Notes under the pieces: generated by a model
What the model was told of the DNA's origin: nothing
Databases searched by the model: none
Seen by the model: the letters and a program-made list of their open reading frames with translations, nothing else
Made by a program: the position numbers and the translations under genes
From: an uncultured Tateyamaria sp.
Lineage (GTDB): Bacteria; Pseudomonadota; Alphaproteobacteria; Rhodobacterales; Rhodobacteraceae
NCBI GenBank assembly: GCA_905480645.1
Contig: CAJQRC010000010.1
Coordinates: forward strand, 62,001 to 126,000
Length of the DNA stretch: 64,000 nt
Reading direction: 5' to 3'
In this document: in pieces, positions 3,390-22,679 of the stretch
Layout of the letters: each line of letters starts with the position of its first letter
How positions within the stretch are numbered: position 1 is the stretch's first letter

Positions 3390-3608
3390 ACGTGCGCTCC
3401 AGCTTTAGTTTCTTTTTATATGGCTGGGTCTAGCGATGTTTGCAATGACATCCAAAAAGAATGGTAAAGATGTAGGAGTTGGAAAAACCAGTAGCTTTGA
3501 TTTTTTTATTAAGATTTACTTGTCTTATTATAATTTTTCATGGTGTCCTCATAATGCTGATTATAGAATCATGATATACTAATTATTCAAAAACTAAATT
3601 TTGTTCAG

Positions 3609-5849: not shown

Positions 5850-5904
5850 TTTTTCATGCACTTATCTTTGATGAAAATTGTCTAGACGAAAGAAAGGGAT
5901 AGCC

Positions 5905-6870: not shown

Positions 6871-6967
6871 TATAGCACACTTGCTTTAGCTTTCGGCTGA
6901 AGGTTACTGCAAACAATCAGGGCTTGGCGGTATTAGTCGTCTAATTAGTATACAGAGTGAGATGTGA

Positions 6968-7831
6968 ATGAATAGAATAGTATATGTTAATGGAGTTTAT
7001 CTACCTGAAAGTGAAGCTAAAGTTTCAATTTTTGATCGTGGATTTCTAATGGCTGACGGTGTCTACGAGGTGACATCTGTCCTTGGAGGGAAATTGATTG
7101 ATTTTGACGGCCATGCCTTCCGTTTAAGACGCTCATTGACTGAGTTGGAAATGGCCTCTCCTATATCAAAAAATGTTTTATTAGAAGTTCACCGCGAATT
7201 GGTGCGCTTAAATGAAATCGATGAGGGTATGATCTATCTCCAGATCACTCGTGGTGCCCCTAATGATCGTGATTTTGTTTTTCCTGATCCACAAAAAACT
7301 CCATCTACCATTGTGCTGTTTACTCAAAACAAGCCAGGATTGGCTAACAATCCAGCAGCAAAGAAAGGTATAAAGGTAATCAGTATCGAAGACATTCGGT
7401 GGGGACGAAGAGACATTAAGACTGTACAACTGCTTTACCCCTCAATGGGAAAAATGATGGCCAAAAAAGCTGGAGTTGATGATGCTTGGATGGTCCAAGA
7501 TGGTTTTGTTACGGAAGGAACTTCCAATAACGCTTATATTGTGAAGGGTAATAAGATTATTACGCGAGCTAAGTCTAATGACATATTACATGGGATTACT
7601 CGTGCTGCGGTATTACGCTTTGCAGAAGAAGCGCAAATGGAGATTGAGGAACGTAATTTTTCGATTGAGGAAGCCCGTGAAGCAGATGAGGCGTTTATTA
7701 CTTCTGCTTCAACATTTGTAATGCCAGTAGTAGAAATTGATGGTGTGATGCTGGGTGATGGAAGCCCAGGAAATGTTGCGCCACGACTTCGTGAAATATA
7801 CATTGATGAAAGCCGGAAAATAGCAATCTAA
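6968..7831 (+). CDS. dat: D-amino acid aminotransferase (class IV, PLP)
   Basis: Fold-type IV pyridoxal-phosphate transaminase of 287 residues; converts D-alanine and other D-amino acids plus 2-oxoglutarate into 2-oxo acids plus D-glutamate. The Schiff-base lysine is K151 in RRDIKTVQLL, the cofactor-contacting glutamate is E183 in VTEGTSNNAY, and the LQITRGAPNDRDFVFP segment is typical of D-alanine aminotransferases rather than branched-chain enzymes. It lies 97 bases after dgcA on the same strand. Its product, D-glutamate, is the expected substrate of dgcN, so the three genes form a coherent route. A branched-chain or D-specific side activity cannot be separated by reading. Confidence 0.85.
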   Translation: MNRIVYVNGVYLPESEAKVSIFDRGFLMADGVYEVTSVLGGKLIDFDGHAFRLRRSLTELEMASPISKNVLLEVHRELVRLNEIDEGMIYLQITRGAPNDRDFVFPDPQKTPSTIVLFTQNKPGLANNPAAKKGIKVISIEDIRWGRRDIKTVQLLYPSMGKMMAKKAGVDDAWMVQDGFVTEGTSNNAYIVKGNKIITRAKSNDILHGITRAAVLRFAEEAQMEIEERNFSIEEAREADEAFITSASTFVMPVVEIDGVMLGDGSPGNVAPRLREIYIDESRKIAI

Positions 7832-8239: not shown

Positions 8240-8621
8240 AAATTGTGATACTGAAATAAACGATTAAGGGGCAGAGATATTATACTTTTTTGACTTTAGG
8301 ATATATTATCTCACGGTGTAGATGTTATCACCTTTGACTTAATCGAAATTTTTGAATTCTATTATAAATTTATCGCACGATCCTTAGAGTTAAAGCTTTA
8401 TTTGGTGGGTGGAATATTGGCCCAATATTCCCGTCAATATGTAAACAGCGAAAACCTAGTGTGACAAAAAATAAGGTATTGAAAAATACATGATCATTGC
8501 CACTTGTTATTTAAATTTTGATGCTTGGTGAATGGCGGGATCTAAGCGTCAATTTAGATAATAGTTCTGGAACGATATCAGTGAATTTCGATAAACTTAT
8601 TAATTTAGTTTAAAACAAATT

Positions 8622-8639
8622 GTTGAAATATATTTCAAC
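8622..8639. promoter_or_regulatory. Perfect 18-bp palindrome, putative operator of the EryD-like regulator
   Basis: GTTGAAATATATTTCAAC equals its own reverse complement and ends 42 bases before the regulator start at 8682. SorC/DeoR-type regulators of sugar operons bind AT-rich palindromes near their own promoter, so this is a good candidate for the operator that controls the whole 14-kb operon. I saw no second copy within the operon. Confidence 0.55.
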
Positions 8640-8681
8640 TAGAGTAACATTTTTCAAATAATAAGGTTAGGTCTGATTCGT

Positions 8682-9632
8682 ATGTCTCTTTCGGTAAATC
8701 ATGATGAGGAACTTAGTCTTTCTACGCGGGCGGCTTGGTTGCATTATGGTGGAGGGCTATCTCAAACAGAAGTAGCTAAGAGGCTGGGAGTTACAAAAAT
8801 AAAGGCTCACCGTTTAATTGGGCGAGCAAACCAAGAGGGTATCGTCAAAATTAGTTTTGATGGTGAAATAGCAGAATGTGCTGCGCTCGAAATGAAGCTA
8901 AGTGAAGCTTATTTACTTTCTTACTGCGAAATCGTCCCTGATCTCGAAGAAGCGGGGCTTCCGGTGCGAGCTCTTGGTCTAGCAGGCGGCCGCTTCTTAA
9001 GTCGCGAAATTGCTAGTGGAGACCATGATGTAATTGGTGTTGGCAATGGAAGGACACTTGCGTCTTGTGTACGTCACATGCCCAGTCTGAAATCAAAAAA
9101 TGTTCAATTTGTTTCTTTGATGGGCGGCCTGACAAGAAATTTTGCAGCTAATCCACACGACGTTATGCATAGGCTTGCAGAGAAAACTGGAGCTGAGGCC
9201 TATTTCATGCCAGTGCCCTTTTTTGCAAACTCTACCGACGATCGTAACGTTATGTTGCAGCAGCGTGGTGTGCCTGAAGTCAGACAGATGGCAGCAGCGT
9301 CATCGTTAAAATTTGTTGGGATAGGGACAGCAGAAAATACAGCTCAAACTGTCACTTCTGGTGTCGTTGCGGAGAGTGCCATGCAAGATGTGCGTGAGCG
9401 CGGCGGTGTGGGAGAAATGGTAGGTCACTTCTTCGATCAAAGTGGCAAGCGCGTCCAGTCAAAGCTTGCCGACCGCACTTTATCAGTTGGAATTGAAGCA
9501 TTAGAAGAAAGTAGGATTGTCGCTGTCGGAGGCGGTGACGAGAAGGTCCGAGCAATCGGATCTTTACTAAGAAGTGGCCTATTAAACGGTCTCATAACGG
9601 ACGAGCGCTCCGCTAAAGCGCTCATTAACTAA
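8682..9632 (+). CDS. SorC/DeoR-type regulator, EryD-like
   Basis: Transcriptional regulator of 316 residues, the same length as the erythritol repressor EryD. A helix-turn-helix at residues 26-49 (LSQTEVAKRLGVTKIKAHRL) is followed by the sugar-binding domain related to phosphosugar isomerases (from about 60). The segment GGLTRNFAANPHDVMHRL and then MPVPFFANS strongly recalls EryD. The ligand is probably a free or phosphorylated polyol. It is the first gene of the operon, 21 bases before the binding-protein gene, and a perfect palindrome lies 42 bases upstream of its start, which suggests autoregulation together with the transporter. Confidence 0.85.
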   Translation: MSLSVNHDEELSLSTRAAWLHYGGGLSQTEVAKRLGVTKIKAHRLIGRANQEGIVKISFDGEIAECAALEMKLSEAYLLSYCEIVPDLEEAGLPVRALGLAGGRFLSREIASGDHDVIGVGNGRTLASCVRHMPSLKSKNVQFVSLMGGLTRNFAANPHDVMHRLAEKTGAEAYFMPVPFFANSTDDRNVMLQQRGVPEVRQMAAASSLKFVGIGTAENTAQTVTSGVVAESAMQDVRERGGVGEMVGHFFDQSGKRVQSKLADRTLSVGIEALEESRIVAVGGGDEKVRAIGSLLRSGLLNGLITDERSAKALIN

Positions 9633-9653
9633 ACTATCCAAGGGAGGATAAGC

Positions 9654-11099
9654 ATGTACGAAAAAGAAAAGAAACTAGCCAAGTCTTATATTGACGGTAA
9701 GGTTAGCAGACGCTCCATGTTACGTGGAATGGCTTCAATGGGTGTTACCGCCTCAACGGCCGGGGTTCTGGTTAACGCCGCCGCAACTCAGGCTCTCGCT
9801 CAGAATGGTTTTGACTGGAAGAAGTACTCGGGCACGACCGTGAAGCTTCTCTTGAACCAGCACCCCTATGCCGATGCGATGATAGCAAATCTTGATAACT
9901 TCAAAGAGCTCACTGGCATGGATGTTGAATACGACATTTTCCCAGAGGATGTCTATTTTGACAAAGTCACGGCAGCTCTTTCTTCAGGGTCAAGCGAGTA
10001 TGATGCATTCATGACAGGTGCTTACATGACATGGACCTATGGTCCCGCTGGTTGGATTGATGATCTGAATGAGTACATCGGAGATGATTCTAAGACAAAT
10101 CCTGATTATAATTGGGAAGATATGCTTGAAGGTGTAAGAAAATCCTGTGCTTGGAATGGTCAGCCAGGAGGCGCACTTGGATCAGATGATGCGAAACAGT
10201 GGTGCATACCGTGGGGTTATGAACAGAACAATTTAACCTACAACAGTCGGATGTTTAACGAGGCCGGGTTGACAGTTCCAACGAACATCGACGAATTGGC
10301 AAGCACAGCGGCTGAAGCAAAAGCTAAACTGAATGGTGTTTACGGAATTGGCGTTAGGGGTTCCCGTTCATGGGCCACTATACACCCCGGATTCTTGTCT
10401 GCGTATGCTAATTTTGGCCAAAAAGACCTTAATGTAAGTGATGATGGTATGCTATCAGCTGCTATGAATACTGATGTTTCGCGTAACATGCATGAAAAGT
10501 GGGTCAAAATGATCCAAGATAGTGGAGCACCTGATTGGTCAACTCACACATGGTATCAGGCGGGTACTGATTTGGGTGCTGGTAAATCTGCTATGATTTT
10601 TGATGCTGACATCTTAGGTTATTTTATGAATGGTGGTGATAATGCTGAAGCCGGCAACTTATCGTTTGCACCATTTGCGGCCAATCCAGAAGCTAAGGCT
10701 CCGACGCCAAACATTTGGATCTGGTCTTTGGCTATGGCAAATGCATCTAAACAAAAAGATGCCACATGGTACTTTTTGCAGTGGGCATCTGGACCAGAAC
10801 ACGCCTTGTTTGGCGCTACTGAAATGGACTTTGTTAATCCTGTCCGGAAATCTGTTTGGGCTGATGCGGGTTTCCGTTCGCGCCTAGACAAGAATTATCC
10901 TGGTTATGTTGAAATGCATGACATATCTGCGCCTGGTGCCCAAATTTACTTCACTGCTCAACCGTTGTTTTTTGATCTTACAACAGAATGGGCGGCAACA
11001 CTTCAGAAAATGGTGGCAAATGAAGTGCCTGTGGATGAGGGCCTCGATCAACTCGCACAAAGTGTGGATCGGCAACTCAAAGAAGCAGGGTTGGGTTAA
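9654..11099 (+). CDS. ABC importer substrate-binding protein, sugar/polyol (family 1), Tat signal
   Basis: Periplasmic solute-binding protein of 481 residues that delivers substrate to the permeases encoded next. The N-terminus has a twin-arginine signal: S18-RR-SMLRG followed by a hydrophobic region and a likely cleavage after ALA at 47-49. The mature part is a family 1 binding protein (NLDNFKELTGMDVEYDIFPED, then the pattern of carbohydrate-binding proteins). GGGAGG lies just upstream of the ATG. The substrate is unknown; the EryD-like regulator and EryA-like kinase suggest a tetritol or related polyol. A 10-bp stem hairpin follows the stop. Confidence 0.88.
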   Translation: MYEKEKKLAKSYIDGKVSRRSMLRGMASMGVTASTAGVLVNAAATQALAQNGFDWKKYSGTTVKLLLNQHPYADAMIANLDNFKELTGMDVEYDIFPEDVYFDKVTAALSSGSSEYDAFMTGAYMTWTYGPAGWIDDLNEYIGDDSKTNPDYNWEDMLEGVRKSCAWNGQPGGALGSDDAKQWCIPWGYEQNNLTYNSRMFNEAGLTVPTNIDELASTAAEAKAKLNGVYGIGVRGSRSWATIHPGFLSAYANFGQKDLNVSDDGMLSAAMNTDVSRNMHEKWVKMIQDSGAPDWSTHTWYQAGTDLGAGKSAMIFDADILGYFMNGGDNAEAGNLSFAPFAANPEAKAPTPNIWIWSLAMANASKQKDATWYFLQWASGPEHALFGATEMDFVNPVRKSVWADAGFRSRLDKNYPGYVEMHDISAPGAQIYFTAQPLFFDLTTEWAATLQKMVANEVPVDEGLDQLAQSVDRQLKEAGLG

Positions 11100-11118
11100 C
11101 TCCCTAATCCAACTTTCT

Positions 11119-11147
11119 CCACCGCCAAGCCTTTCGTTTGGCGGTGG
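11119..11147 (+). repeat. GC-rich hairpin between binding-protein and permease genes
   Basis: CCACCGCCAA and TTGGCGGTGG pair over 10 bp with a nine-base loop, 20 bases past the stop of the binding-protein gene. There is no T run after it, so it is unlikely to terminate fully. In binding-protein-dependent systems such hairpins protect the upstream mRNA from 3' decay and give more binding protein than permease. Confidence 0.65.
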
Positions 11148-11216
11148 GGTATCTTGATGAGCCCGCAACTAAATAAGCTATTCCAGCCCACAGAATGGGC
11201 ATAAGAGAGATATGTC

Positions 11217-12140
11217 ATGGCAACTTCGACAACTGGCGATCCTTCAAGGCGCAAGTTTACTATTAATAAGAAGTATTTGCCTTATCTATTAAGCCTGCCT
11301 GCTTTACTGACTTGTATTGGTATATTAATTCCATTTTTTACTGCCGTTGCATACTCCTTGCAGCGCTATCGGTTGTCTCAGCCTTGGGCGCAAAAATACA
11401 ATTGGGGAGAAAACTATATAAATTTTATGACTGATCCGTCATTCTGGAACACGCTGAAGGTGTCTATGACTTATGCCTTTGTGACAGTTGGAGTCGAACT
11501 ACTTTTAGGATTGGGGATTGCACTACTTCTACAGAAACGGACGCGGTTCAATAATTTCGTTTCGATCATGTTACTTATGCCGCTGATGACAGCGCCCGCG
11601 TTGGCATCTTTGATGTGGAAACTCATGACCAATCCAGGGTTTGGCGTATTGAGTTATTTTGCGGAAACCATTGGAATTGAAGATATGCGATGGGCATCTG
11701 ATCCATCAACCGCCATGCTTACCGTCGTGATTGTAGACGTTTGGGTTTATACACCGTTCATTATGATTTTACTTCTGGCAGGCCTCAGGTCGCTACCTCG
11801 ACAGCCATTTGAAGCCGCTGAACTGGATGCTGTTCCGCGTCTTTTTGTGTTCTGGCGCATAACATTACCAATGCTTACCCCATTTCTTCTTACTGCCACT
11901 CTTTTTCGAGTTATTGAGTCCATTCAACAATTTGATATCATTTATGCAATGACCCAAGGTGGCCCAGGAGATACGCTAACAGTTTTTCAGGTTGAGGCTT
12001 ACCTAAACTTTTTTCAATCAACAAATGTTGGCCGCTCTGCAGCTCTCTTGATGATTCTCTGGGCTATCACTTATTTTTTATCAAACATTTTCATCAAAAA
12101 CTGGTTACGTCTGCGTGAAAAAGCACGCGGCGGTGCATAA
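11217..12140 (+). CDS. Sugar/polyol ABC importer permease 1 (MalF-like)
   Basis: Inner-membrane permease of 307 residues with about six helices; the first spans roughly residues 20-45. The cytoplasmic EAA loop is EAAELDAVPRLFVFWRITLP at about 200-219, the site that docks the ATPase. TQGGPGDTLTVFQVEAY near the C-terminus is typical of MalF-type permeases. It forms the channel with the second permease, encoded 11 bases downstream. The start at 11217 follows a GAGAGATAT region with a weak ribosome site; it lies 117 bases after the binding-protein gene because of the intervening hairpin. Confidence 0.9.
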   Translation: MATSTTGDPSRRKFTINKKYLPYLLSLPALLTCIGILIPFFTAVAYSLQRYRLSQPWAQKYNWGENYINFMTDPSFWNTLKVSMTYAFVTVGVELLLGLGIALLLQKRTRFNNFVSIMLLMPLMTAPALASLMWKLMTNPGFGVLSYFAETIGIEDMRWASDPSTAMLTVVIVDVWVYTPFIMILLLAGLRSLPRQPFEAAELDAVPRLFVFWRITLPMLTPFLLTATLFRVIESIQQFDIIYAMTQGGPGDTLTVFQVEAYLNFFQSTNVGRSAALLMILWAITYFLSNIFIKNWLRLREKARGGA

Positions 12141-12151
12141 GGACATTACGG

Positions 12152-13009
12152 ATGCAAAAGAATAGCAATCTTGAGAACGTTCTTCGTGGCGTAGCTATTA
12201 CTGCGATAATATTATTTTTCATGTTCCCAATACTGTGGATTTTTCTGATGTCCTTTCAGACGAACGAAACTATTCTGCGCGTTCCACCATCACCCTTTTT
12301 TGAACCTACGCTAACCAACTACCGTTCTCTCATTTCTGGAAAATTAGAGGGGAGTACTGCTACCTTAGAGATTGCGTTTATGTCTAATCTCTACAATTCA
12401 CTTTTTTTGTCCGTTACTTCAGTAACAGTGGGCCTGATACTTGGAGTTCCCGCGGCTTATGCTTTTGCAAGGCTGAAATTTCGTGGCTCTGAGGACATTG
12501 CTTTCACGCTCTTGTCATTTCGTTTTGCACCGCCACTCTTAGTTCTCTTGCCTCTTACGATTTATTTCCAACAGATAGGTTTGGCTGACACCTATGGAGG
12601 TCTGATCTGGGTATATCAACTTATAGTTTTACCTCTAATCTTGTGGATCGTGCGAGGTTATTTTGAAGATATCCCAGCTGATATAGAATATGCTTACAGG
12701 ATCGCTGGGCATAGCTTTTGGGCTACTTTCCGCAAGATTGCATTGCCTTTAGCTGGTCCGGGTATCGCAGCCGCTGGCTTGCTGGCTTTTATATTCGCTT
12801 GGAATAACTTCATTTTTGCCCTAGTACTTGCTTCCGCAGATAAACAACCCGTCACAGTGGGTGCGCTGGCCTTTATTACGGCATCTGGCATTAATTATGG
12901 CCAGATTGCTGCGGGGATCATGCTCTCGATTGCCCCAACTTTTGCCCTCGCGCTGTATGCCCAACGCTACCTTGTCGAAGGTTTATCACTTGGCGCAGTG
13001 AAGGGGTAA
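12152..13009 (+). CDS. Sugar/polyol ABC importer permease 2 (MalG-like)
   Basis: Second inner-membrane permease, 285 residues, about six helices. The EAA loop is degenerate: IPADIEYAYRIAGHSFWATF replaces the usual EAAxxDG pattern (Tyr for the second Ala, Ala-Gly for Asp-Gly). It pairs with permease 1. The next gene, an ATPase, starts three bases after its stop, so translation is probably coupled. A divergent EAA loop beside an atypical ATPase pair is worth noting. Confidence 0.9.
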   Translation: MQKNSNLENVLRGVAITAIILFFMFPILWIFLMSFQTNETILRVPPSPFFEPTLTNYRSLISGKLEGSTATLEIAFMSNLYNSLFLSVTSVTVGLILGVPAAYAFARLKFRGSEDIAFTLLSFRFAPPLLVLLPLTIYFQQIGLADTYGGLIWVYQLIVLPLILWIVRGYFEDIPADIEYAYRIAGHSFWATFRKIALPLAGPGIAAAGLLAFIFAWNNFIFALVLASADKQPVTVGALAFITASGINYGQIAAGIMLSIAPTFALALYAQRYLVEGLSLGAVKG

Positions 13010-13012
13010 AAT

Positions 13013-14104
13013 ATGTCGCTCGAGCTTACCAACATCAGTAAAAGCTTCAAAGACGAAATGGTACTTGATGGAGTGTCTATTCAAGTGCATGAAGGGAAAA
13101 CGCTTGTCTTGTTTGGTCCATCTGGTGCTGGTAAAACGGTGCTACTGCGATTAATCGCAGGGGTCATTGAGCCAGACAGTGGCCAGATAAAAATCTCAGG
13201 GACTGACGTTGATGGTGTAGAGCCTGAAGATCGCAACATAGGTATGGCCTTCCAGAACTTTGCACTGTTTCCGCATATGGATGCTCACGCCAATATCGCG
13301 AGCCCATTAACAGCACAAAAGCAGGATAAATCTGCGATTCAATCTGGCGTTCAAACGTTAGCCAAGCTCTTGAAGATCGACCACGTCCTTGACCACAAAC
13401 CAAAAGAACTTTCGAACGGTCAAAAACAACGCACAGCTTTGGCACGAGCACTTGCTGGTAAGCCAAAAGTTCTGTTACTTGATGATCCACTGCGCAATGT
13501 TGACGCCAAGCTGCGGTTCGAGATGCGCCTTGAATTGCCCCGTTTGCTATCCGACCAAAACACCACAGTGATTTATGTGACACAAGACTACAAAGAGGCA
13601 ATGGCTTTTGGTGATGAGATTGCTGTGATTAGCTCTGGTGTTGTCCAACAAATCGGCACACCGGAAGATATCTACTTGACGCCTGCGAATATCGAAATTG
13701 CGCGGTTGTTTGGTGATCCAGTGATCAATTATCTTGATGTTACAGTACAAAAAGATGCAGTGGGGATCTTCGCGCTCGTCTCCGATAAACGCGTTGATCT
13801 GAATTCAGGATATGCCCGAGCCGTAGGGCAAGACTGCAGCCTTGGTATCCGACCTGAATCCATTCTGTTCGTCCCAGCTAGCCACCCCGGAGCAGTACCC
13901 GTGACTGTGGAAGCTGAGACGCCCCTGAACGAAAAAACTGTCAATCTATGCCTGACCGCGCGTGGTCGTGAAATCATGGCTTCCCGTCCTTCCGGTACAG
14001 TTGGGCCCGCAAACGGCCCAGCATTTGTATCGATAGAAGCGGCTAACGTGCTGATTTTTGACAAACACACTGGCGAGTTAATTGAACCGGACAAGTTCTA
14101 TTAG
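13013..14104 (+). CDS. Sugar/polyol ABC importer ATPase 1, degenerate catalytic residues
   Basis: MalK/UgpC-type ATPase of 363 residues: nucleotide-binding domain about 1-235, then a TOBE regulatory domain. Walker A is GPSGAGKT (35-42) and the Q-loop glutamine is Q81. Three positions are unusual: the signature reads LSNGQ (133-137), Walker B ends D157-D158 so the catalytic glutamate is Asp, and the switch histidine is Q191 (VTQD instead of VTHD). It probably forms a heterodimer with ATPase 2, as in the GlpST glycerol importer, and its own Walker site would be the weak one. It starts three bases after the permease stop. Confidence 0.9.
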   Translation: MSLELTNISKSFKDEMVLDGVSIQVHEGKTLVLFGPSGAGKTVLLRLIAGVIEPDSGQIKISGTDVDGVEPEDRNIGMAFQNFALFPHMDAHANIASPLTAQKQDKSAIQSGVQTLAKLLKIDHVLDHKPKELSNGQKQRTALARALAGKPKVLLLDDPLRNVDAKLRFEMRLELPRLLSDQNTTVIYVTQDYKEAMAFGDEIAVISSGVVQQIGTPEDIYLTPANIEIARLFGDPVINYLDVTVQKDAVGIFALVSDKRVDLNSGYARAVGQDCSLGIRPESILFVPASHPGAVPVTVEAETPLNEKTVNLCLTARGREIMASRPSGTVGPANGPAFVSIEAANVLIFDKHTGELIEPDKFY

Positions 14105-14118
14105 AAAGGAAAATCCGC

Positions 14119-15246
14119 ATGAGTGATGTGATGTTAGATCTTAATTCTGTAGATAAGTTTTATGGCTCCAAAGGTCAGGGTGTACATGCAGTTTGCAACA
14201 TCTCCATGAAGGTTATGCGTGGTGAGATTATTGCGCTTTTGGGCTCATCGGGTTGTGGCAAGACGTCGATGTTGCGCATGGTAGCTGGGTTTGAAGCTGT
14301 TAGCCGAGGTAAGATTAGCATTGGTGACCGTGAAATTCATGCTCTGCGGCCCGTAGAACGAAACGTCGCTATGGCGTTTGAAGGCTACTCCCTCTACCCG
14401 ACTGTCACCGTGCGTGACAATATTGCTTTTGCGCTGAAAAGTAGCAAGTTTTCAGCTACGGATGTCGCTGTCAAAGTGGACGAGATTGCGGCAATGCTTG
14501 AAATATCTACTATTCTTGATAAATATCCTTCCTCAATCTCTGGAGGCCAGCAACAACGCGCTTCTCTTGCGCGCGCGTTGATCCGTGATGCTGATTTGTA
14601 TCTTCTGGACGAACCTATGGGACAGTTGGAACCCCAACTGCGTACGCTCCTGCGCGGACGGATTAAGGCATATATCAAAGAGCGTGGTTTAACTGCGATC
14701 TTGGTTACACATGACCAGACTGAAGCAAACGCGCTGGCTGATAGAATTGCTGTCATGGAGGATGGTGAGCTACAACAATTCGCCAGTCCAGAAGATATCA
14801 AGAAGTCACCTGCTAATATATTTACAGGCACATTTGTCGGTGAACCACCGATGAATGTTTTTCCTGCCCGTGCTAGTATCTCCGAAGAGACAGTGTGCTT
14901 GCGGCTCAACGAAAACATTGACCTAAGCTACCCCGCGGATGCATTTTCTGCTGAATTGCGCGCAAGTCTAGCTGAAATGGGTGATATTGTACTTGGTGTT
15001 CGCCCGTATGCGGTGCAGCGTCGTGACACGGGATCGCTTGCTACTGTCGTAGTCAATCAATGGCTCGGCGATCAAAGCCATATTGCTACAAATTTCGCTG
15101 GTGGGTCATTAGTGCTGGTTGAACACGATCGTACCCAACTGTCTGAAGATGAACAAATAGCCATTTACCTAGAGCCATCTGACATTCATATTTTCAACTC
15201 CAAAACTGGTATGGCGATAAGCCATGGGGCGCGGTTGATCGGATGA
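14119..15246 (+). CDS. Sugar/polyol ABC importer ATPase 2
   Basis: Second MalK/UgpC-type ATPase, 375 residues, with TOBE domain after about 240. Walker A is GSSGCGKT (42-49), the signature ISGGQ (140-144), Walker B ends D164-E165 and the switch histidine is H198 (VTHD), all consensus. The Q-loop position, however, is E88 in AMAFEGYSLYP instead of glutamine. Together with ATPase 1 this gives one consensus-like and one degenerate ATP site. AGAAAGGAAAA precedes the ATG. Its stop overlaps the start of the kinase gene (ATGA), so the two are translationally coupled. Confidence 0.9.
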   Translation: MSDVMLDLNSVDKFYGSKGQGVHAVCNISMKVMRGEIIALLGSSGCGKTSMLRMVAGFEAVSRGKISIGDREIHALRPVERNVAMAFEGYSLYPTVTVRDNIAFALKSSKFSATDVAVKVDEIAAMLEISTILDKYPSSISGGQQQRASLARALIRDADLYLLDEPMGQLEPQLRTLLRGRIKAYIKERGLTAILVTHDQTEANALADRIAVMEDGELQQFASPEDIKKSPANIFTGTFVGEPPMNVFPARASISEETVCLRLNENIDLSYPADAFSAELRASLAEMGDIVLGVRPYAVQRRDTGSLATVVVNQWLGDQSHIATNFAGGSLVLVEHDRTQLSEDEQIAIYLEPSDIHIFNSKTGMAISHGARLIG

Positions 15247-16799
15247 GTAAAGATCTAATCATAGGCATCGACGCGGGTACATCAGTGATAAAATCCATTG
15301 CTTTCGATTTAAGTGGAAAGCAAATAGCGACAGCCGCAGTGCCCAATCGTTATTTTACCAGTAAGGATGGTGCAGCCACGCAACCATTGGACCAAACTTG
15401 GCAAGATTGTGCATATTCTTTGAACCAATTAGGGGATAAAATCCCTGAATTAGCTGATCGCGTGGCAGCAGTTGCAGTAACTGGACAAGGTGATGGCACC
15501 TGGCTAATTGATAAAGACACAAGACCAGTTGGCGATGCGTGGCTTTGGCTTGATGCACGTGCGGGTAGTAAAGCAGAAGCCTTGCGAAAACATCCCAGTG
15601 ACATTGCGCGATTCAAGAGAACTGGAACTGGTCTTAACGCCTGTCAACAGGGCACACAACTTGCGTATATGATGACGCACTTCCCTGAGCAGATTAATCA
15701 GGCTGAGACAGCCTTTCATTGTAAAGATTGGCTGTATCATAACTTTACGGGTGTTCGAGCAACTGACCCTTCAGAAGGTTGTTTTACATTTGGTGACTAT
15801 CAAACAGGTTGTTATTCAAGTGATGTGATTGATTTCTACAATCTTGGTACATACTCGTCATTGATCCCACCTATATGCGATGGTGTGCAAACCCACCACC
15901 CAATGACGCGATCAGCGGCCAAACAAACGGGGCTATTAGCCGGAACACCAATTGTTTTGGGCTATGTCGATATAGTTTGCAGCGCTTTAGGAGCGGGCGC
16001 TTATGAACCTGGGGTTTCAGTTGGCTGCACAATCGTTGGCAGTACTGGTGTTCATATCCGTGCTCAGAAATCTGCAGAAATAAAGCTGAATTGTGATCTA
16101 AAGTCAGGATATGCAATGGTTATGCCTATCGAGGGTATCGCCGCGCAATTACAAACAAACATGGCTAGTACTTTAAATCTTGATTGGGTTCTCGGCCTTG
16201 CTGAACAAATTGCAGGCAGCTTGGGTGTAAATGTTGAAAAAGATTTTTTTTTGAAACTTGTCGATGATTGGATTGTGAATGCTCAACCAGCTTCACTACT
16301 TTACCACCCTTATATTTCGAATGCAGGTGAGAGAGGCCCGTTCATTGACCATACAGCGAGCTCTAGTTTTTTAGGTTTAAGCTCAAACCATCAATTTGGT
16401 GACTTGGTACGTGGTACAATAGAAGGATTAGGCTTTGCTGCACGTGATTGTTATACAGCGATGGGAAAAGTTCCGCAGGAAGTTCGTCTAACCGGTGGTG
16501 CTGCGCGCTCGAAAGGTTTGCGTGAAATTCTATCAGCAACGCTAGGAACGCCTGTGCGTCAGTCAACTCGTGAAGAAACTGGCGCTTCGGGTGCTGCAAT
16601 GATTGCGGCGGTATCATTGGGGGTTTTCAACACTATGGATCTCTGTCTTGAAGAGTGGGTTACGCCAATGTTGGACGAACAGGAAAAGCCTGTTCTAGAA
16701 TTAACCAATAAATACAACCGCCATTTCCCTAAATATATCTCAGCACGGCAGGCGCTTCAGCCAATTTGGCATCAATTATCAAATTCAAAGGGACACTGA
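15243..16799 (+). CDS. FGGY carbohydrate kinase, erythritol kinase-like (EryA)
   Basis: ATP-dependent polyol kinase of 518 residues, the length of EryA. The N-terminal domain starts IIGIDAGTSVIKSIAFDLSG (phosphate-binding loop), with AVTGQGDGTWL and the WLWLDARAG substrate-site segment. The C-terminal domain has the adenine-binding LTGGAARSKGLREIL and EETGASGAAM motifs. Several stretches match what I recall of Brucella EryA (GDAWLWLDAR, HCKDWLY, TDPSE), so phosphorylation of erythritol or another tetritol is the best guess. It overlaps the ATPase 2 stop by four bases, and a hydroxyacid dehydrogenase starts two bases after its stop. Confidence 0.8.
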   Translation: MSKDLIIGIDAGTSVIKSIAFDLSGKQIATAAVPNRYFTSKDGAATQPLDQTWQDCAYSLNQLGDKIPELADRVAAVAVTGQGDGTWLIDKDTRPVGDAWLWLDARAGSKAEALRKHPSDIARFKRTGTGLNACQQGTQLAYMMTHFPEQINQAETAFHCKDWLYHNFTGVRATDPSEGCFTFGDYQTGCYSSDVIDFYNLGTYSSLIPPICDGVQTHHPMTRSAAKQTGLLAGTPIVLGYVDIVCSALGAGAYEPGVSVGCTIVGSTGVHIRAQKSAEIKLNCDLKSGYAMVMPIEGIAAQLQTNMASTLNLDWVLGLAEQIAGSLGVNVEKDFFLKLVDDWIVNAQPASLLYHPYISNAGERGPFIDHTASSSFLGLSSNHQFGDLVRGTIEGLGFAARDCYTAMGKVPQEVRLTGGAARSKGLREILSATLGTPVRQSTREETGASGAAMIAAVSLGVFNTMDLCLEEWVTPMLDEQEKPVLELTNKYNRHFPKYISARQALQPIWHQLSNSKGH

Positions 16800-16801
16800 A
16801 C

Positions 16802-17851
16802 ATGACGCGAAAAATTGCGATCATTGGTGATCATTTTATTCTCCCTGAGGTATTCGAGTCTGAGCTCCTTAAAACCTGTTTTGAATATAATCTTGACTGT
16901 CGTCTTCGTTTAGAAGACTGGCCCAATAGTCCTGTCACACATGGCTACGAGGGCGCTGTAGATGTTCCAATAAGAGAGTTTATTGGAGATTTTGATGAGG
17001 TAACAGCCTTCATTGCGGATGCTGAAATTTTGGTTATGCACCAATCTCCAGTTACAGATAAAATGCTGGAAAAATTACCAAAACTAAAGTTCATTGGTTG
17101 TTCTAGGGGGGGACCTGTTAATGTTGACATCAACGCCGCAAATCGGCGCGGTGTTCAAGTTGTTCGCGCACCTGGCCGGAATGCTTCGGCCGTTGCGGAA
17201 TTTACAATTGGCGCTATTCTCGCAGAGACACGTAAAATTCGAATTGGGCATGAAGCTATGCGTAACGGAGTTTGGCGTGGTGATCTTTACCGTGCCGACA
17301 CAACTGGTCGTGAGTTGAACGAGATGACTGTTGGTGTAGTTGGTTATGGAAAAATTGGCACACGATTGGTTAAAATTCTGCAAGCCTTTGGCTGTCGCAT
17401 TTTGGTGAATGATCCCTATGTGCAGTTAGATCCTTTTGATATCGCAGCTGGCGTTGAACAGGTTTCGCTAGAAATGCTGCTTGAGCAGAGTGATGTGGTC
17501 ACACTCCATCCACGCGTTAGTCACGAAACAACGCAGATGATCAATAAAAACACATTAGCCAAAATGAAAAGTGAAGCATTATTGGTTAATACGGCTCGAG
17601 GACCTCTTTGTAATTATGACGATCTTTATAAAGCCCTTAAGAACGGTATAATTGGCTCTGCAATGCTCGAAACTTTTTCTATTGAGCCCACGCCGCCAGA
17701 CTGGCCACTACTGAAACTCGACAATGTGACTTTAACCCCGCATATCGCTGGAGCCTCTGTTCGTACCGCTCAATATGCTGCTCAAGTACTCGCGGCGGAT
17801 GTAAAAAATTATATTTCTGGATTACCTCTAGTTAATCTTTGTAGGTCATAA
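16802..17851 (+). CDS. D-isomer-specific 2-hydroxyacid dehydrogenase (PGDH-like)
   Basis: NAD-dependent dehydrogenase of 349 residues. The Rossmann loop is GYGKIG (181-186) in VGVVGYGKIGTR, and the catalytic set is visible: R266 (NTARGPL), E295 (in SIEPTP) and H314 (LTPHIAGAS). This is the arrangement of phosphoglycerate and erythronate-phosphate dehydrogenases. Substrate is unknown; in this operon a phosphorylated sugar acid or 2-oxo acid is plausible. The N-terminus is longer than in short family members (an extra 60 residues with many acidic positions). The start at 16802 was preferred because it falls two bases after the kinase stop. Confidence 0.85.
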   Translation: MTRKIAIIGDHFILPEVFESELLKTCFEYNLDCRLRLEDWPNSPVTHGYEGAVDVPIREFIGDFDEVTAFIADAEILVMHQSPVTDKMLEKLPKLKFIGCSRGGPVNVDINAANRRGVQVVRAPGRNASAVAEFTIGAILAETRKIRIGHEAMRNGVWRGDLYRADTTGRELNEMTVGVVGYGKIGTRLVKILQAFGCRILVNDPYVQLDPFDIAAGVEQVSLEMLLEQSDVVTLHPRVSHETTQMINKNTLAKMKSEALLVNTARGPLCNYDDLYKALKNGIIGSAMLETFSIEPTPPDWPLLKLDNVTLTPHIAGASVRTAQYAAQVLAADVKNYISGLPLVNLCRS

Positions 17852-17852
17852 A

Positions 17853-18056
17853 ATGAGCAAAAGACATATTGAGTTTGGGACTTTTCCGCGATCAAATTTT
17901 TTACTTAAGATGTGGTTAGCTGATGATTTAGGAGCGTCACTCGTTCAGTATTTTAAAATTTTTATATTAGATAATACTCAAAATTTTTGTTTATTTGATA
18001 CCTACAAAGCTGCTAAATTAGCGGCTTCCCTTAACTCTCAGGCATTGGAGAAATAG
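17853..18056 (+). CDS. Unknown 67-residue protein in the polyol operon
   Basis: I recognise no family. The ATG comes one base after the dehydrogenase stop (TAA-A-ATG), and the stop lies two bases before the GlpD-like start, so it fills the gap exactly as a coupled gene would. The product has a basic N-terminus (MSKRHIEF), a mixed middle (FLLKMWLADDLGASLVQYF) and a C-terminal helix-like stretch (YKAAKLAASLNSQALEK). No cysteine pair, signal peptide or clear membrane helix is seen. The DNA is more AT-rich than its neighbours and the GlpD ribosome site GGAG lies inside its end. It could be a real small protein or merely spacer that stays open. Confidence 0.5.
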   Translation: MSKRHIEFGTFPRSNFLLKMWLADDLGASLVQYFKIFILDNTQNFCLFDTYKAAKLAASLNSQALEK

Positions 18057-18058
18057 GT

Positions 18059-19564
18059 ATGCCTGAAGCTATTGACCTTTTTATAATAGGCGGTGGAGTA
18101 AATGGTGCTGGCATTGCTCGTGACGCTGCTGGTAGGGGTTTGTCTGTGGTCCTTTGTGAAAAGGATGACCTAGCAGAAGGAACATCTTCGCGATCGGGTA
18201 AGTTGATACACGGCGGTTTGCGCTATCTAGAGTACTACGAGTTCCGCTTAGTTCGTGAAGCTCTTATTGAGCGGGAAATATTGTTGAATGCGGCTCCGCA
18301 TATTATTTGGCCATTGCGTTTTGTGCTTCCTCATAGTCCAACGGATAGGCCAGCATGGTTAGTTAGACTTGGGTTATTTTTGTACGATCACTTAGGGGGA
18401 AGAAAGCGTTTACCAGGCACGCGTGTACTTAATCTGACGCGTGATCCGGAAGGTCTACCACTCAAGGCTCAATATACCAAAGCATTTGAATACTCTGATT
18501 GTTGGGTGGATGATGCGCGATTAGTTGTCCTAAATGCAGTTTCTGCTCGCGATAATGGTGCAGAAATATTGCCGAGAACTGATTGTAAATCGTTGAGGCA
18601 AGAAAATGGTTATTGGGTAGTGCGTGTTGAAAATACAGTCTCTGGTCAGTCTCGTGAAATTTTTGCAAAAGCTGTAGTCAACGCGGCAGGGCCATGGGTG
18701 AACGATGTCATCGGACGCGTAGCTGGTGCAAACTCTAGTCGCTTGGTTAAGCTGGTCAAAGGCAGCCATATTATTGTGCCAAAATTTTGGCATGGGCAAC
18801 AGGCTTATCTAATTCAGAACCATGATAAGCGAGTTATTTTTATCAATCCTTATGAAGATGATAAGGCTCTGATTGGAACAACTGATATTGCGTATGAGGG
18901 TGATCCAAATAATGTTTCTGTAGATAAAGGTGAAATCGAGTATCTTCTTGAAGCTGTGAACCGCTATTTTGAAAAACCATTGCAAGAAGAAGATGTGGTA
19001 GCATCTTTTTCTGGTGTGCGGCCGCTTTTTGATGATGGAAACGGTAACCCAAGCGCAATTACCCGGGACTATGTGCTAGACTTGGACCGGTCTCGTGGTG
19101 CGCCGTTGCTTAATATTTTTGGTGGTAAAATTACCACTTATCGAAAATTAGCAGAGCATGCGGTTCAAGAACTCAAGGCTATCTTTCCCCAAATGGGTCC
19201 TAGCTGGACAGCAATTGAACCGCTGCCCGGCGGGGATATATTGGATGCAAATTTTGATGCCTTTTTATTGGAATTACAACGTCAGTATAGTTTTCTGCCA
19301 AGCGATTTGGTCAAACATTATGCGCGCCTGTATGGGACAAGAGCAACACATATCATTGGTAACGCATCCCACATTAAACAACTTGGAAATCAGTTTGGAC
19401 CGCTTCTGTTCGAGGCAGAATTAGAATTTTTGGTTGAGTATGAATGGGCCTGCTGCGCTGACGACGTTTTGAAACGCCGAACCAAGCACGGGCTTACAGT
19501 TAATCCAGATGAGGTAGCTCAAATCAATGAATGGTTCAAAAATGAACACTCGAAAACAGTCTGA
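18059..19564 (+). CDS. FAD-dependent glycerol-3-phosphate / tetritol-phosphate dehydrogenase (GlpD/EryB-like)
   Basis: Membrane-associated flavoprotein of 501 residues that oxidises a polyol phosphate and passes electrons to quinone. The FAD-binding loop is GGGVNGAG (11-18), followed by GTSSRSGKLIHGGLRYLEYY, which is the GlpD signature, and FEYSDCWVDDARLVV. The C-terminal domain (from about 380) is the GlpD cap. EryB, the erythritol-phosphate dehydrogenase, is in the same family and of the same size. The neighbouring EryA-like kinase favours a phosphorylated tetritol over glycerol 3-phosphate, but reading alone does not settle it. GGAG sits eight bases upstream of the ATG. Confidence 0.85.
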   Translation: MPEAIDLFIIGGGVNGAGIARDAAGRGLSVVLCEKDDLAEGTSSRSGKLIHGGLRYLEYYEFRLVREALIEREILLNAAPHIIWPLRFVLPHSPTDRPAWLVRLGLFLYDHLGGRKRLPGTRVLNLTRDPEGLPLKAQYTKAFEYSDCWVDDARLVVLNAVSARDNGAEILPRTDCKSLRQENGYWVVRVENTVSGQSREIFAKAVVNAAGPWVNDVIGRVAGANSSRLVKLVKGSHIIVPKFWHGQQAYLIQNHDKRVIFINPYEDDKALIGTTDIAYEGDPNNVSVDKGEIEYLLEAVNRYFEKPLQEEDVVASFSGVRPLFDDGNGNPSAITRDYVLDLDRSRGAPLLNIFGGKITTYRKLAEHAVQELKAIFPQMGPSWTAIEPLPGGDILDANFDAFLLELQRQYSFLPSDLVKHYARLYGTRATHIIGNASHIKQLGNQFGPLLFEAELEFLVEYEWACCADDVLKRRTKHGLTVNPDEVAQINEWFKNEHSKTV

Positions 19565-20588
19565 AGTAACGTCAACTGATTTTGACGCTTTAAAAGTTTT
19601 ATCTGCGGATTTTGGTCGAAACCCGCTACACATTCAGGGCGCTGGTGGAAACTCATCGATCAAAGACGGTGATAAGATGTGGATTAAAGCTTCTGGAACT
19701 CTGCTCGGGGATGCACTTACCCGCGAGGTATTTGTCCCTGTTGATCTTGTTAGTATGAGAACTGCTCTTGAGTTTGATCACGCGCAATCTGATACGCCGG
19801 CTGTATTCCTTATTCCTGGTTTTTCTGATCTTCGCCCTTCAATTGAAACTAGCCTGCATGCTGTTTTTTCTCAACGCATAGTCCTGCATACGCATTGTAT
19901 TCATACTATTGCTCATGCTGTTCAAACGAATGTTTGTGATCTTCTGGCTGCTCGTTTAAGCGAATTTAATTGGGCTTTTGTGCCTTATGCCAAACCGGGT
20001 GCTAATCTTGCGCGGTCTGTCATGAAGGTTCTTAAACCTGACACTGATGTAATAATCTTGGGTAATCATGGGCTTATAGTAGCTGGGGAAACTATAAACG
20101 AAGTAAGGGCCCTCCAAAATAAAGTGCACTCGGCTCTTGCCTTGTCTGTAAGAGAATTAGCCGGGGAAAACTACAATGCTTTGATGGACCGTGTGGATGA
20201 TGGAGAATATGTTCTTCCTAATGACCTGCTTCTGCACCAAATCGCACTTTCAGATAAAAGGGTCGCGCTAGTGACAGCCGGAAGCTTATACCCAGATCAT
20301 GTAATCTTTTGTGGAATCGCTGTAACGGCCTTAAGTCTGAACCAGAGTACTTATGAAGTAAAACAGCATGATAAACGAAAACAACCCGTTTGCCTCATTG
20401 TTCCAGAAGTTGGCTTGCTTTTGCATAAAGATGCTAGCATGGGTGCTAGATTAATGCTGCGTTGTCTGGCTGATGTTATCATGCGTCTTCCGGAAAATGC
20501 TGAGTTGAATTATCTAACCCAAGATCAGAATTATGAACTCCTAGATTGGGACGCAGAAAAGTATCGTCAAGCTCTCAATGCTGAATGA
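19527..20588 (+). CDS. Class II aldolase/adducin-family protein, probable sugar-phosphate aldolase
   Basis: Zinc-dependent aldolase fold, up to 353 residues, longer than FucA (about 215) and closer to the aldolase part of RhaD-type proteins. GAGGNSSIK (39-46) is the phosphate-binding region, H121-T-H123 provides zinc ligands, and GNHGLIVAGE (179-188) adds the third histidine. A C-terminal extension of about 110 residues is of unknown use. The gene overlaps the end of the GlpD-like gene by 38 bases if the ATG at 19527 is used, or 23 bases if 19542 is used; no strong ribosome site decides. It could split a ketose phosphate made by the dehydrogenase. Confidence 0.8.
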   Translation: MNGSKMNTRKQSEVTSTDFDALKVLSADFGRNPLHIQGAGGNSSIKDGDKMWIKASGTLLGDALTREVFVPVDLVSMRTALEFDHAQSDTPAVFLIPGFSDLRPSIETSLHAVFSQRIVLHTHCIHTIAHAVQTNVCDLLAARLSEFNWAFVPYAKPGANLARSVMKVLKPDTDVIILGNHGLIVAGETINEVRALQNKVHSALALSVRELAGENYNALMDRVDDGEYVLPNDLLLHQIALSDKRVALVTAGSLYPDHVIFCGIAVTALSLNQSTYEVKQHDKRKQPVCLIVPEVGLLLHKDASMGARLMLRCLADVIMRLPENAELNYLTQDQNYELLDWDAEKYRQALNAE

Positions 20589-21843
20589 TATTTTTATAGG
20601 TATAGACCATGGCACTTCCGGTGCGCGTGCTACAGCCATCGATTCTCAAAACCATATTATTGGAGAAGGCAAATCAAGACTTGCCGATCATCGTGCGGAC
20701 CCAAGAGATCCTTGCGCTTGGTATGCTGCCGCAGCCACGGCATTGGCTATAGCAATTAAGAATATTAAACGCCAAAATGTCCGAGCAATCGCTATAGATG
20801 GCACTTCTGGCTCTATGTTGCCTATCGATATTAATGGCAAGCCTCTTGCGCCCGCTCTTATGTATAATGATCCTTGTCAAAATCTTGATATTTTAGAAAA
20901 AATTGCTCATACTGCACCCTTGAATAGTGCTGCGCACGGTGCCACTAGTGGGGCAGCAAAAGTAATGTTTTTTCAGGCAGCGGTTCCACTTACTTACAAG
21001 ATAGTTCATCAGGCAGATTGGATTGCAGGCCAATTTTGTGGCATTTATGCTTCTGATGATAACAATGCCCTCAAGACTGGATTCGACTCCGTGAGTAGAT
21101 CTTGGCCTGATTGGATGGAAAGTGTAGGTATTGACCGAAATTTATTGCCTGACGTCAATGAGCCAGGCACAGTTTTTGCGCCAATATTTTCGGATGTTGC
21201 TGCAAAATTTGATCTTCCGTTATCAACAAAAATTGTATCAGGAACAACGGATGGGTGCGCGGCCTTCCTGTCAACCGGAGCGTCAAAACCTGGTGATGGG
21301 GTAACATCTATTGGCACAACAATGATAATTAAAATTATCTCTGAAACGCCAATTTTTGATGCTTCTAGTGGCGTTTATAGCCATAAGATCCTTGGTAATT
21401 GGTTAGCTGGAGGCGCATCGAATACTGGTGGTGGCGTACTTCTAGACTATTTTTCTATGGAGGAAATATCACTCCTCTCACGGCAAATTGATACAACAGC
21501 AAAACTGGGTCTTGAGTATTATCCACTAAGCAAGCCAGGTGAGCGCTTTCCAATATCTGACCCCAATCTAAAACCTGTTCTCTTCCCTAGACCAGAAAAT
21601 AATGCGGATTTTTTGAAAGCCATTTTTGAAGGAATTGCTGGAGTGGAGCGCCTTGCGTATGGAAAGCTGAATAGTCTTGGTGCTCCGTCGTTAAGTACAA
21701 TCCGTACAGTAGGTGGGGCAGCAAAAAATGATACTCTAACCAAAATTCGTGAGCATTGCCTTGGTATTAAAGGCAGCCGTCCAATACATGAAGAAGCCGC
21801 TTACGGTACTGCTCTTTTGGCAAAACACGGTTTTCAAAAATGA
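20578..21843 (+). CDS. FGGY carbohydrate kinase 2, D-ribulokinase/xylulokinase-like
   Basis: Second FGGY kinase of the operon, 421 residues, clearly shorter than and different from the EryA-like one. The N-terminus is IFIGIDHGTSGARATAIDSQ, a pattern typical of the D-ribulose kinase group (short xylulokinase-like proteins). The middle has GTTDGCAAFLSTGA and SIGTTM; the C-terminus has TVGGAAKNDTLTKI and EEAAYGTALLA for nucleotide binding. It overlaps the aldolase stop by 11 bases and the HAD gene start by four. It may phosphorylate a ketose that the aldolase then cleaves. Confidence 0.85.
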   Translation: MLNDIFIGIDHGTSGARATAIDSQNHIIGEGKSRLADHRADPRDPCAWYAAAATALAIAIKNIKRQNVRAIAIDGTSGSMLPIDINGKPLAPALMYNDPCQNLDILEKIAHTAPLNSAAHGATSGAAKVMFFQAAVPLTYKIVHQADWIAGQFCGIYASDDNNALKTGFDSVSRSWPDWMESVGIDRNLLPDVNEPGTVFAPIFSDVAAKFDLPLSTKIVSGTTDGCAAFLSTGASKPGDGVTSIGTTMIIKIISETPIFDASSGVYSHKILGNWLAGGASNTGGGVLLDYFSMEEISLLSRQIDTTAKLGLEYYPLSKPGERFPISDPNLKPVLFPRPENNADFLKAIFEGIAGVERLAYGKLNSLGAPSLSTIRTVGGAAKNDTLTKIREHCLGIKGSRPIHEEAAYGTALLAKHGFQK

Positions 21844-22679
21844 CTTTTAAGATTGAACTGTTAGCTCCAATTATTAACCGATATGATGCTTTCTTGATTG
21901 ATCAATTTGGCGTGCTCATAGACGGAGAACAGACGTATCCAGGTGCGATTGATGCTCTTAAACATATTGCACAAAGTGGCAAGCCGGTGGTCATATTGTC
22001 CAACTCAGGGAAACGCGCTGAACCCAATTGTAATCGCTTGACCTCTTTTGGATTTGATCGCCAGCATTTTGTAACTGTTGTCACATCCGGTGAAATTGCT
22101 TATCACTCAATCAAAAATCAGCTTGGTATTACCATTAAAAATGATGCGCGGGTCATGGTGTTGGCTCGGCCAGGTGAGACATCGCCTATTTTGGATTTAG
22201 ATTTGACAGAAACTAACAACCCAAGAATGGCTGATATTCTTCTTATTGTAAGCCGTGATATTGGAATGAATCGCAAAGATTACATCAAATTATGGACTGA
22301 ATTCAATGCAACTGGAGGCAAATGTTATTGTCTCAATCCTGATCTTAATATGCTTACGCCAAAGGGAATTACCTTTAGTGCTGGTACCATTGCTAAGCTT
22401 TTTGAACAGCGTGGCGGTGACATTATTTGGTATGGGAAACCGTATCAGGATATCTACGCTGATGCGCTCAGATTTTTTAACAACATACCAAGGGATGATA
22501 TTTTATGCATTGGTGATAGCATTCATCACGACATTATAGGCGGTCACGCCGCTGGTCTAGCCACTGCACTTGTTCGTCAAGGAGTTCATAGTGATATTTC
22601 AGACGGGAAAGTCTATAATATTTTGTCAGGACTGGGGATATCTCCAACACATATTTTACGGTCATTTTCGATTACTTAG
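21840..22679 (+). CDS. HAD-superfamily class IIA phosphatase (NagD-like, TIGR01459)
   Basis: Phosphatase or phosphoglycolate-phosphatase-like enzyme of 279 residues. Motif I is atypical at YDAFLIDQFGVLIDG: in the canonical DxDGV(L/I)W motif the nucleophile and acid are two residues apart, and here the pair reads D-Q-F-G. Motif II is VVILSNSGKRAE; the C-terminal motif is CIGDSIHHDIIGGHAAG. Its cap domain (C2a) lies between. It is the last gene of the operon, overlapping the kinase by ATGA. A role in removing dead-end sugar phosphates is plausible. A structured inverted repeat follows. Confidence 0.85.
   Translation: MTFKIELLAPIINRYDAFLIDQFGVLIDGEQTYPGAIDALKHIAQSGKPVVILSNSGKRAEPNCNRLTSFGFDRQHFVTVVTSGEIAYHSIKNQLGITIKNDARVMVLARPGETSPILDLDLTETNNPRMADILLIVSRDIGMNRKDYIKLWTEFNATGGKCYCLNPDLNMLTPKGITFSAGTIAKLFEQRGGDIIWYGKPYQDIYADALRFFNNIPRDDILCIGDSIHHDIIGGHAAGLATALVRQGVHSDISDGKVYNILSGLGISPTHILRSFSIT

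Follow-up and report, generated by a model that had tools for sequence, protein, structure and literature searches.

The window analysed here, the whole 64,000-nucleotide stretch of an uncultured Tateyamaria sp. genome (C10:62001-126000; genome of 3.07 Mb, 99.85% complete), carries a run of genes that is very probably a Sinorhizobium meliloti-type mpt-ery-rbt polyol operon. Open reading frames (ORFs) and family profiles place 12 plus-strand genes in one run at 8682-22679. In order, they encode a SorC/DeoR-type regulator, a solute-binding protein, two permeases, two ATPases, an FGGY kinase, a D-2-hydroxyacid dehydrogenase, a GlpD-family dehydrogenase, a class II aldolase, a second FGGY kinase, and a TIGR01459 HAD protein. 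The first-pass annotation of this DNA was right about the plus-strand run and its protein families, including the placement of EryD-, EryA-, and EryB-type genes beside an aldolase-family protein, a second sugar kinase, and a HAD protein; it gave 13 genes where 12 are counted here. The names rbtA, lalA, rbtB, and rbtC are assigned putatively to the hydroxyacid dehydrogenase, class II aldolase, second FGGY kinase, and HAD genes.

8682..9632, plus strand: eryD, SorC/DeoR-type sugar-binding regulator (PF04198, 230.5 bits; 58% identical to NGR234)
9654..11099, plus strand: mptA, solute-binding protein (PF01547; 75.5% to NGR234)
11217..12140, plus strand: mptB, permease (PF00528; 79% to NGR234)
12152..13009, plus strand: mptC, permease (PF00528; 81% to NGR234)
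13013..14104, plus strand: mptD, ATPase (PF00005; 65% to NGR234)
14119..15246, plus strand: mptE, ATPase (PF00005; 68% to NGR234)
15243..16799, plus strand: eryA, FGGY polyol kinase (PF00370/PF02782; 53-56% to the EryA-position genes of NGR234, Rhizobium johnstonii 3841, and Paracoccus seriniphilus; tree)
16766..17851, plus strand: rbtA, D-2-hydroxyacid dehydrogenase family (start at TTG 16766 or ATG 16802; PF02826/PF00389; 59% to NGR234)
18059..19564, plus strand: eryB, GlpD-family polyol-phosphate dehydrogenase (NF009906, 822 bits against a cut-off of 352; 69% to the R. johnstonii 3841 EryB-position gene)
19527..20588, plus strand: lalA, class II aldolase family (PF00596, 64 bits; 43% to NGR234; conserved residues; FucA-like fold)
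20578..21843, plus strand: rbtB, FGGY kinase related to the D-ribulose kinase SePSK and to AtXK-1 (5HTN, E=2e-88, 300 bits; 5HTR, E=2e-87; 53% to NGR234)
21840..22679, plus strand: rbtC, TIGR01459 HAD-family protein (211 bits against a cut-off of 103.75; 40% to NGR234)

Four pairs of neighbours overlap (mptE/eryA, eryB/lalA, lalA/rbtB, and rbtB/rbtC), and the many overlaps seen in the first pass hold for these; eryA and rbtA overlap only if rbtA starts at TTG 16766 and not if it starts at its first ATG, 16802. The assignment of EryB draws on 69.0% identity to the EryB-position gene of R. johnstonii 3841 (L023). A genome search returns two GlpD-family members above the cut-off, the operon EryB and a full-length protein at C10:34793-36379 that is 45% identical to the R. 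johnstonii EryB-position protein. For EryA, the genome yields one match at E <= 1e-60.

The closest guide to the identity of the operon is the locus of Sinorhizobium fredii NGR234 (L031), in which all 12 operon proteins are matched (tblastn) at 40-81% identity with their order kept, followed by eryC, tpiB, and rpiB. The order common to both is eryD, mptABCDE, eryA, rbtA, eryB, lalA, rbtB, rbtC, and this agreement across 12 of 12 genes argues against a chance composition. MptABCDE, encoded by five transporter genes in order, reach 65-81% identity to NGR234, LalA and RbtABC reach 40-59% in identical order, and EryA, EryB, and EryD are 53-69% identical to their counterparts in NGR234, S. meliloti Ak57, and R. 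johnstonii 3841. The S. meliloti Ak57 locus (L022) has the same gene set with a small class II aldolase gene, fucA1, in between; 17 genes are counted there, some with frame breaks, in agreement with the number published for S. meliloti. The high confidence placed in this assignment covers the identity of the locus and not the inferred pentitol branch set out below.

The locus type is already known, and the novelty that the first pass saw in the gene combination falls away with its earlier publication as the S. meliloti mpt-ery-rbt locus. In the available portion of their report, Geddes, Hausner and Oresnik (2013, PMC3599248) describe a 17-gene S. meliloti locus serving erythritol, ribitol (adonitol), and L-arabitol, in which mptABCDE and eryA work for adonitol and L-arabitol as well, and lalA-rbtABC is for these two pentitols and not for erythritol; NGR234 is given there as lacking fucA1. 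Erythritol, ribitol, and L-arabitol are also named as the cargo of MptABCDE in the accessible part of a 2023 report (PMC10433430). The Ak57 record, 3.7 Mb long and labelled pSymB, has its frame breaks in mptA, mptC, and rbtC (3532-4973, 6097-6950, and 16390-17210), which are either sequencing errors or signs of decay.

Homologues of the erythritol isomerase genes lie outside the operon. On the same contig, 68 kb upstream, eryC (C10:305-1237), tpiB (1379-2149), and rpiB (2173-2628) stand side by side and are 60-75% identical to genes of known loci: EryC is 65% identical to NGR234 and 74.5% to R. johnstonii 3841, TpiB is 62% and 67.7% identical, just below the 69% cut-off given in the available text of PMC3599248, and RpiB is 73.2% identical to R. 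johnstonii 3841. The tpiB gene is a second triose-phosphate isomerase gene in the genome. The first pass had noted that EryC, TpiB, and RpiB are absent from this operon, which holds but is misleading, and its proposal of an aldolase acting instead of EryC-type isomerases does not survive the presence of all three homologues. With EryA and EryB in the operon and EryC, TpiB, and RpiB in the genome, the ordinary route to erythrose 4-phosphate, described in the accessible part of PMC11508834 as a five-step route in Brucella, is encoded. An aldolase-based erythritol pathway would be expected in an organism lacking these three proteins, and a pentitol-only (category 3) locus in a genome lacking EryC and TpiB; here the homologues are present in either case.

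The DeoR-type regulator EryR has a best match of only 26% within the 126 kb of contig compared, and the spacing of just 141 bp between eryC and tpiB means that no eryR lies between them. Table 2 of PMC3599248 lists the two Roseobacter genomes, which it places in category 1, without EryR. A split layout occurs elsewhere: two other genomes, G008 and G009, have mpt-eryA-rbtA-lalA-rbtB-rbtC in one locus and eryB-eryC-tpiB-rpiB in another, and the only EryA found in each belongs to the first. About 260 bp before eryC, the start of the contig (L026:1-45; G000:C10:1-45) resembles by eye the 3' end of a tRNA gene, ending in CCA. It could mark the edge of an island or be a mere assembly break at a repeated tRNA.

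A second distinguishing feature is the missing fucA1.

17852..18058: AT-rich gap of 207 bp at the fucA1 position of the six nearest relatives (slot comparison with L034-L038 and L040)

In those six loci, the slot between rbtA and eryB measures 672-679 bp and in every case encodes a small class II aldolase (fucA1) of 218-223 amino acids, 67-86% identical to that of L034; in the window it holds the 207 AT-rich bp. Six class II aldolase matches are present in the genome. The protein closest to fucA1, on contig C12, is 39% identical to that of L034 and 46% to that of S. meliloti, whereas these two are 52% identical to each other, making it likelier to be another aldolase than a moved fucA1. In S. 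meliloti, fucA1 is dispensable for growth on all three polyols, according to the available part of PMC3599248. An inverse association between fucA1 and EryC was considered and dropped, as several loci hold both.

Upstream of eryD lies a tandem element that is a candidate EryD operator.

8622..8656, plus strand: candidate EryD operator upstream of eryD, two boxes, TGNAANNNNTTNCA; boxes at 8624 (exact) and 8643 (one mismatch), 19 bp apart

Under a criterion of at most one mismatch per box and 19 bp spacing, the box pair precedes eryD in 9 of the 13 loci with a known eryD start at the operon head (the window, L118-L122, L022, L031, and L030) and was not found before eryD in L060, L062, L074, and L093, nor in the R. 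johnstonii and Paracoccus ery loci (L023 and L024). It occurs once in the 126 kb of its own contig; of 20 random sequences of that length drawn from a first-order Markov model, 3 contained such a pair. No operator common to the eryD and eryC upstream regions emerged; their longest common substring, 12 bases, lies within the range given by 30 shuffles (9-13). About 250 bp upstream of eryD, at 8411-8431, there is a perfect inverted repeat with 10-base arms and a 1-base spacer. In Gemmobacter fulvus (L030 1-415), a gene for 6,7-dimethyl-8-ribityllumazine synthase (riboflavin synthesis) directly precedes eryD, and a riboflavin-synthesis gene also lies near the S. meliloti Ak57 locus.

The four proteins encoded by rbtA, lalA, rbtB, and rbtC were, together with MptA, compared with solved structures (5 of the 12 operon proteins). 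The LalA model has a predicted local distance difference test score (pLDDT) of 86.9, and Foldseek matches it best to 3m4r, an uncharacterised Thermoplasma aldolase domain, followed by L-fuculose-1-phosphate aldolases (2opi). Its residues E107, H121, H123, and H181, kept in 34 of 34 aligned rows, form the Glu and three-His set of fuculose-phosphate aldolases, with E107 aligning with the Glu of a fuculose-1-phosphate aldolase. RbtB matches SePSK with E=2e-88 and 300 bits and the xylulose kinase 2itm with 68 bits. Of five substrates, D-ribulose raised SePSK activity most, and it had little effect on AtXK-1, in the accessible text of PMC4880283. RbtB D10, T13, and D225 correspond to SePSK D8, T11, and D221, reported there as important, and are kept in 78 of 78 rows; being general FGGY residues as well, they do not fix the substrate of RbtB. 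RbtA retains R278, E307, and H326 in 39 of 39 aligned rows, the Arg/Glu/His set of hydroxyacid dehydrogenases, so that its dehydrogenase site is intact.

These features can be combined into a scheme for all three polyols. MptABCDE would import erythritol, ribitol, and L-arabitol; EryA would phosphorylate each of them, and EryB would turn the resulting phosphate ester into a ketose 1-phosphate by oxidation. The product from erythritol would proceed to erythrose 4-phosphate via EryC, TpiB, and RpiB, and the pentitol products would be handled by LalA-RbtA-RbtB-RbtC. Formation of D-erythrulose 1-phosphate by EryA and EryB fits the name of EryC, D-erythrulose-1-phosphate 3-epimerase, as given in the available part of PMC10733421. 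By the same stereochemistry, in our own working, ribitol would yield D-ribulose 1-phosphate and L-arabitol would yield L-xylulose 1-phosphate, two compounds that differ at C4 only. LalA may interconvert them, RbtC may remove the phosphate, and RbtB may then produce D-ribulose 5-phosphate; that EryB serves pentitols as well is part of the same proposal. This ketopentose-1-phosphate branch via EryB, LalA, RbtC, and RbtB is put forward tentatively, as a possibility with somewhat less than an even chance of being right. Phosphorylation, oxidation, and renewed phosphorylation of a ketose, as imagined in the first pass, fit this pentitol branch.

A contig scan for LalA relatives, from which the best 80 of 560 stretches were kept, shows how often these genes travel together. 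Presence was scored with 15 probes in 10-kb flanks against bit thresholds set for this work; many contigs are short, making absences weak, and the genomes reached through the loci come without a completeness value. RbtB is present in 74 of the 80 loci and RbtC in 70, followed by RbtA (36), EryA (35), EryB (32), EryC (26), TpiB (23), and RpiB (21). Thirty-six loci match lalA-rbtB-rbtC and no other probe, and a DeoR-type regulator and a carbohydrate kinase stand alongside in 34 of these. Most of these 34 (L061 and 33 others, mostly Mesorhizobium) also have a ribose-type ABC transporter and a sugar-phosphate isomerase, and in Aminobacter (L025) the trio sits amid L-rhamnose genes. In such loci the trio would be put to separate use on another sugar. 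One reading, possible though rather doubtful, is a portable LalA-RbtC-RbtB module: LalA would act as a 4-epimerase converting L-xylulose 1-phosphate to D-ribulose 1-phosphate, a HAD protein without its second Asp would remove the phosphate, and a D-ribulose kinase would rephosphorylate at C5, feeding the pentose phosphate pathway.

A search for EryC in 12 genomes gave clear matches in the Tateyamaria genome, G008, and G009 and a weak one (21%) in G011; EryC was not found in any of the 8 others, which have EryA, RbtA, EryB, and LalA but no EryC in the flank. One of these eight (L054) has neither RbtB nor RbtC in the flank. In a family sample of 149 genomes, LalA matches (E <= 1e-40) occur in 17, with identity of at least 50% in four (the Tateyamaria genome, G012, G014, and G144). 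EryC occurs in 10 of the 149, together with the closer LalA in the Tateyamaria genome, G014, and G144.

Several observations weigh against parts of the overall interpretation. With 43% identity to NGR234 and 42% to S. meliloti Ak57, LalA falls short of the 49% required in the 2013 survey (which used 68% for EryC and 69% for TpiB in the available text of PMC3599248), and the mapping of the names rbtA, lalA, rbtB, and rbtC follows from gene order and count. The first pass had named eryC, tpiB, and rpiB homologues elsewhere under the same regulator as a result that would refute its proposal, and the outcome comes near to this: the homologues were found, but for the shared regulator no paired box occurs in the 304 bp upstream of eryC, where the contig ends. 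For the pentitol branch, the aldolase-type Glu of LalA leans towards cleavage over epimerisation. RbtB scores 297 bits against AtXK-1, nearly equal to SePSK, which lowers the odds of both the pentitol branch and the portable module. The usual HAD phosphatase motif is DxD with a second Asp. RbtC has Phe at that position in 67 of 68 rows and Tyr in one, and this replacement weakens the phosphatase step.

The same residues in LalA feed an alternative within the same locus type, in which LalA is a plain ketose-1-phosphate aldolase that cleaves a pentulose 1-phosphate to give glycolaldehyde and dihydroxyacetone phosphate, with RbtA acting downstream on a two- or three-carbon hydroxyacid. Consistent with this alternative are the Glu and its three accompanying His residues, invariant in 34 of 34 rows, the L-fuculose-1-phosphate aldolases that head the Foldseek matches after the Thermoplasma domain, and the Arg/Glu/His set of RbtA, which is that of hydroxyacid dehydrogenases. 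It leaves no clear job for RbtB (with lalA in 74 of 80 loci) or RbtC (70 of 80), including in the 36 trio-only loci, and the frequent D-ribulose-kinase-like partner of LalA leans towards a route ending in D-ribulose 5-phosphate; we consider plain cleavage possible but on the unlikely side. A different division of labour, with RbtA rather than EryB as the pentitol-phosphate dehydrogenase, draws on L060, L074, and L093, where eryA-rbtA-lalA-rbtB has no eryB in between, and on G011, a metagenome-assembled genome and one of three with eryB-less operons, which has nothing beyond a 23-bit EryB match. The other two hold their only EryA in the eryB-less operon and EryB in a separate eryB-eryC-tpiB-rpiB locus, so that EryB must work there with an EryA encoded elsewhere, and this distribution lowers the odds of RbtA in that role. 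All 8 tested genomes without EryC retain EryB, and RbtA has the residues of a carboxylate-binding enzyme; RbtA as the pentitol-phosphate dehydrogenase is improbable.

Least probable of all, to the point of being nearly discounted, is the first-pass idea of a new erythritol route with an aldolase replacing EryC, TpiB, and RpiB. The isomerase genes are indeed missing from the operon itself, and the 8 other genomes tested that combine EryA, RbtA, EryB, and LalA without EryC in the flank all yielded no EryC (EryC was the only one of the three searched, in genomes without a completeness value). In vivo, Escherichia coli FucA and RhaD act in the direction of condensation on D-erythrulose 1-phosphate, as described in the available part of PMC10733421, where an S. 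meliloti aldolase splitting erythrulose 1-phosphate in erythritol breakdown is also already suggested. The Tateyamaria genome, however, encodes eryC, tpiB, and rpiB homologues, and the EryC-less genomes fit the published pentitol-only category 3 (PMC3599248, as far as available). The operon, moreover, lacks fucA1; among the class II aldolases elsewhere in the genome, the one nearest to the L034 and S. meliloti versions reaches 39-46% identity to them, and S. meliloti reportedly can do without the gene (same portion of PMC3599248). For the Tateyamaria genome, a new erythritol pathway is not supported.

With that claim removed, the operon falls into an already published locus type, of which this example has a split layout and no fucA1. 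To the published picture the analysis adds the tandem candidate EryD operator, the absence of fucA1, the kinship of RbtB with D-ribulose kinase, the Glu/His set of LalA, and an RbtC without the second Asp. No biochemistry of LalA, RbtB, or RbtC was recognisable in literature titles and abstracts on ribulose-1-phosphate aldolase or epimerase routes from pentitols, and the gene names of the locus pointed again to PMC3599248 and PMC10433430. If true, the pentitol branch would assign a biochemical function to each of lalA, rbtB, and rbtC, which have only genetic roles in the literature found, and would hint at the function of the second, lalA-rbtB-rbtC-only loci of Mesorhizobium. Just 5' of the operon, at 5878-7831, are genes for a DgcA-type N-acetyl-D-Glu racemase (493 bits, cut-off 400) and a D-amino-acid transaminase (378 bits, cut-off 320), which probably belong to D-glutamate metabolism without relation to the operon.

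Compared with known systems, the operon is closest in composition to the category 1 locus of NGR234 and S. meliloti, sharing 12 genes and their order, with EryC, TpiB, and RpiB homologues in the genome too. It differs in having eryC-tpiB-rpiB 68 kb off rather than at the operon end, and it lacks fucA1 like NGR234, whereas S. meliloti carries it. Rhodobacteraceae-type loci (L034-L038 and L040; Ruegeria sp. EL01, Roseobacter, and others) have the same operon order and a LalA that is 56-72% identical; they differ in the fucA1 that separates rbtA from eryB and in that no EryC was found in their genomes. Category 3 loci (Bradyrhizobium BTAi1/ORS278, Acidiphilium, and Verminephrobacter; listed in the available part of PMC3599248) resemble the window in having no eryC, eryR, or tpiB alongside the operon, whereas the Tateyamaria genome does encode EryC and TpiB homologues. 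The Brucella and Rhizobium leguminosarum eryABCD-tpiB-rpiB loci share EryA, EryB, and EryD with the operon, with EryC, TpiB, and RpiB encoded elsewhere in the Tateyamaria genome; unlike them, the window operon has an Mpt-type transporter and the extra lalA-rbtABC genes.

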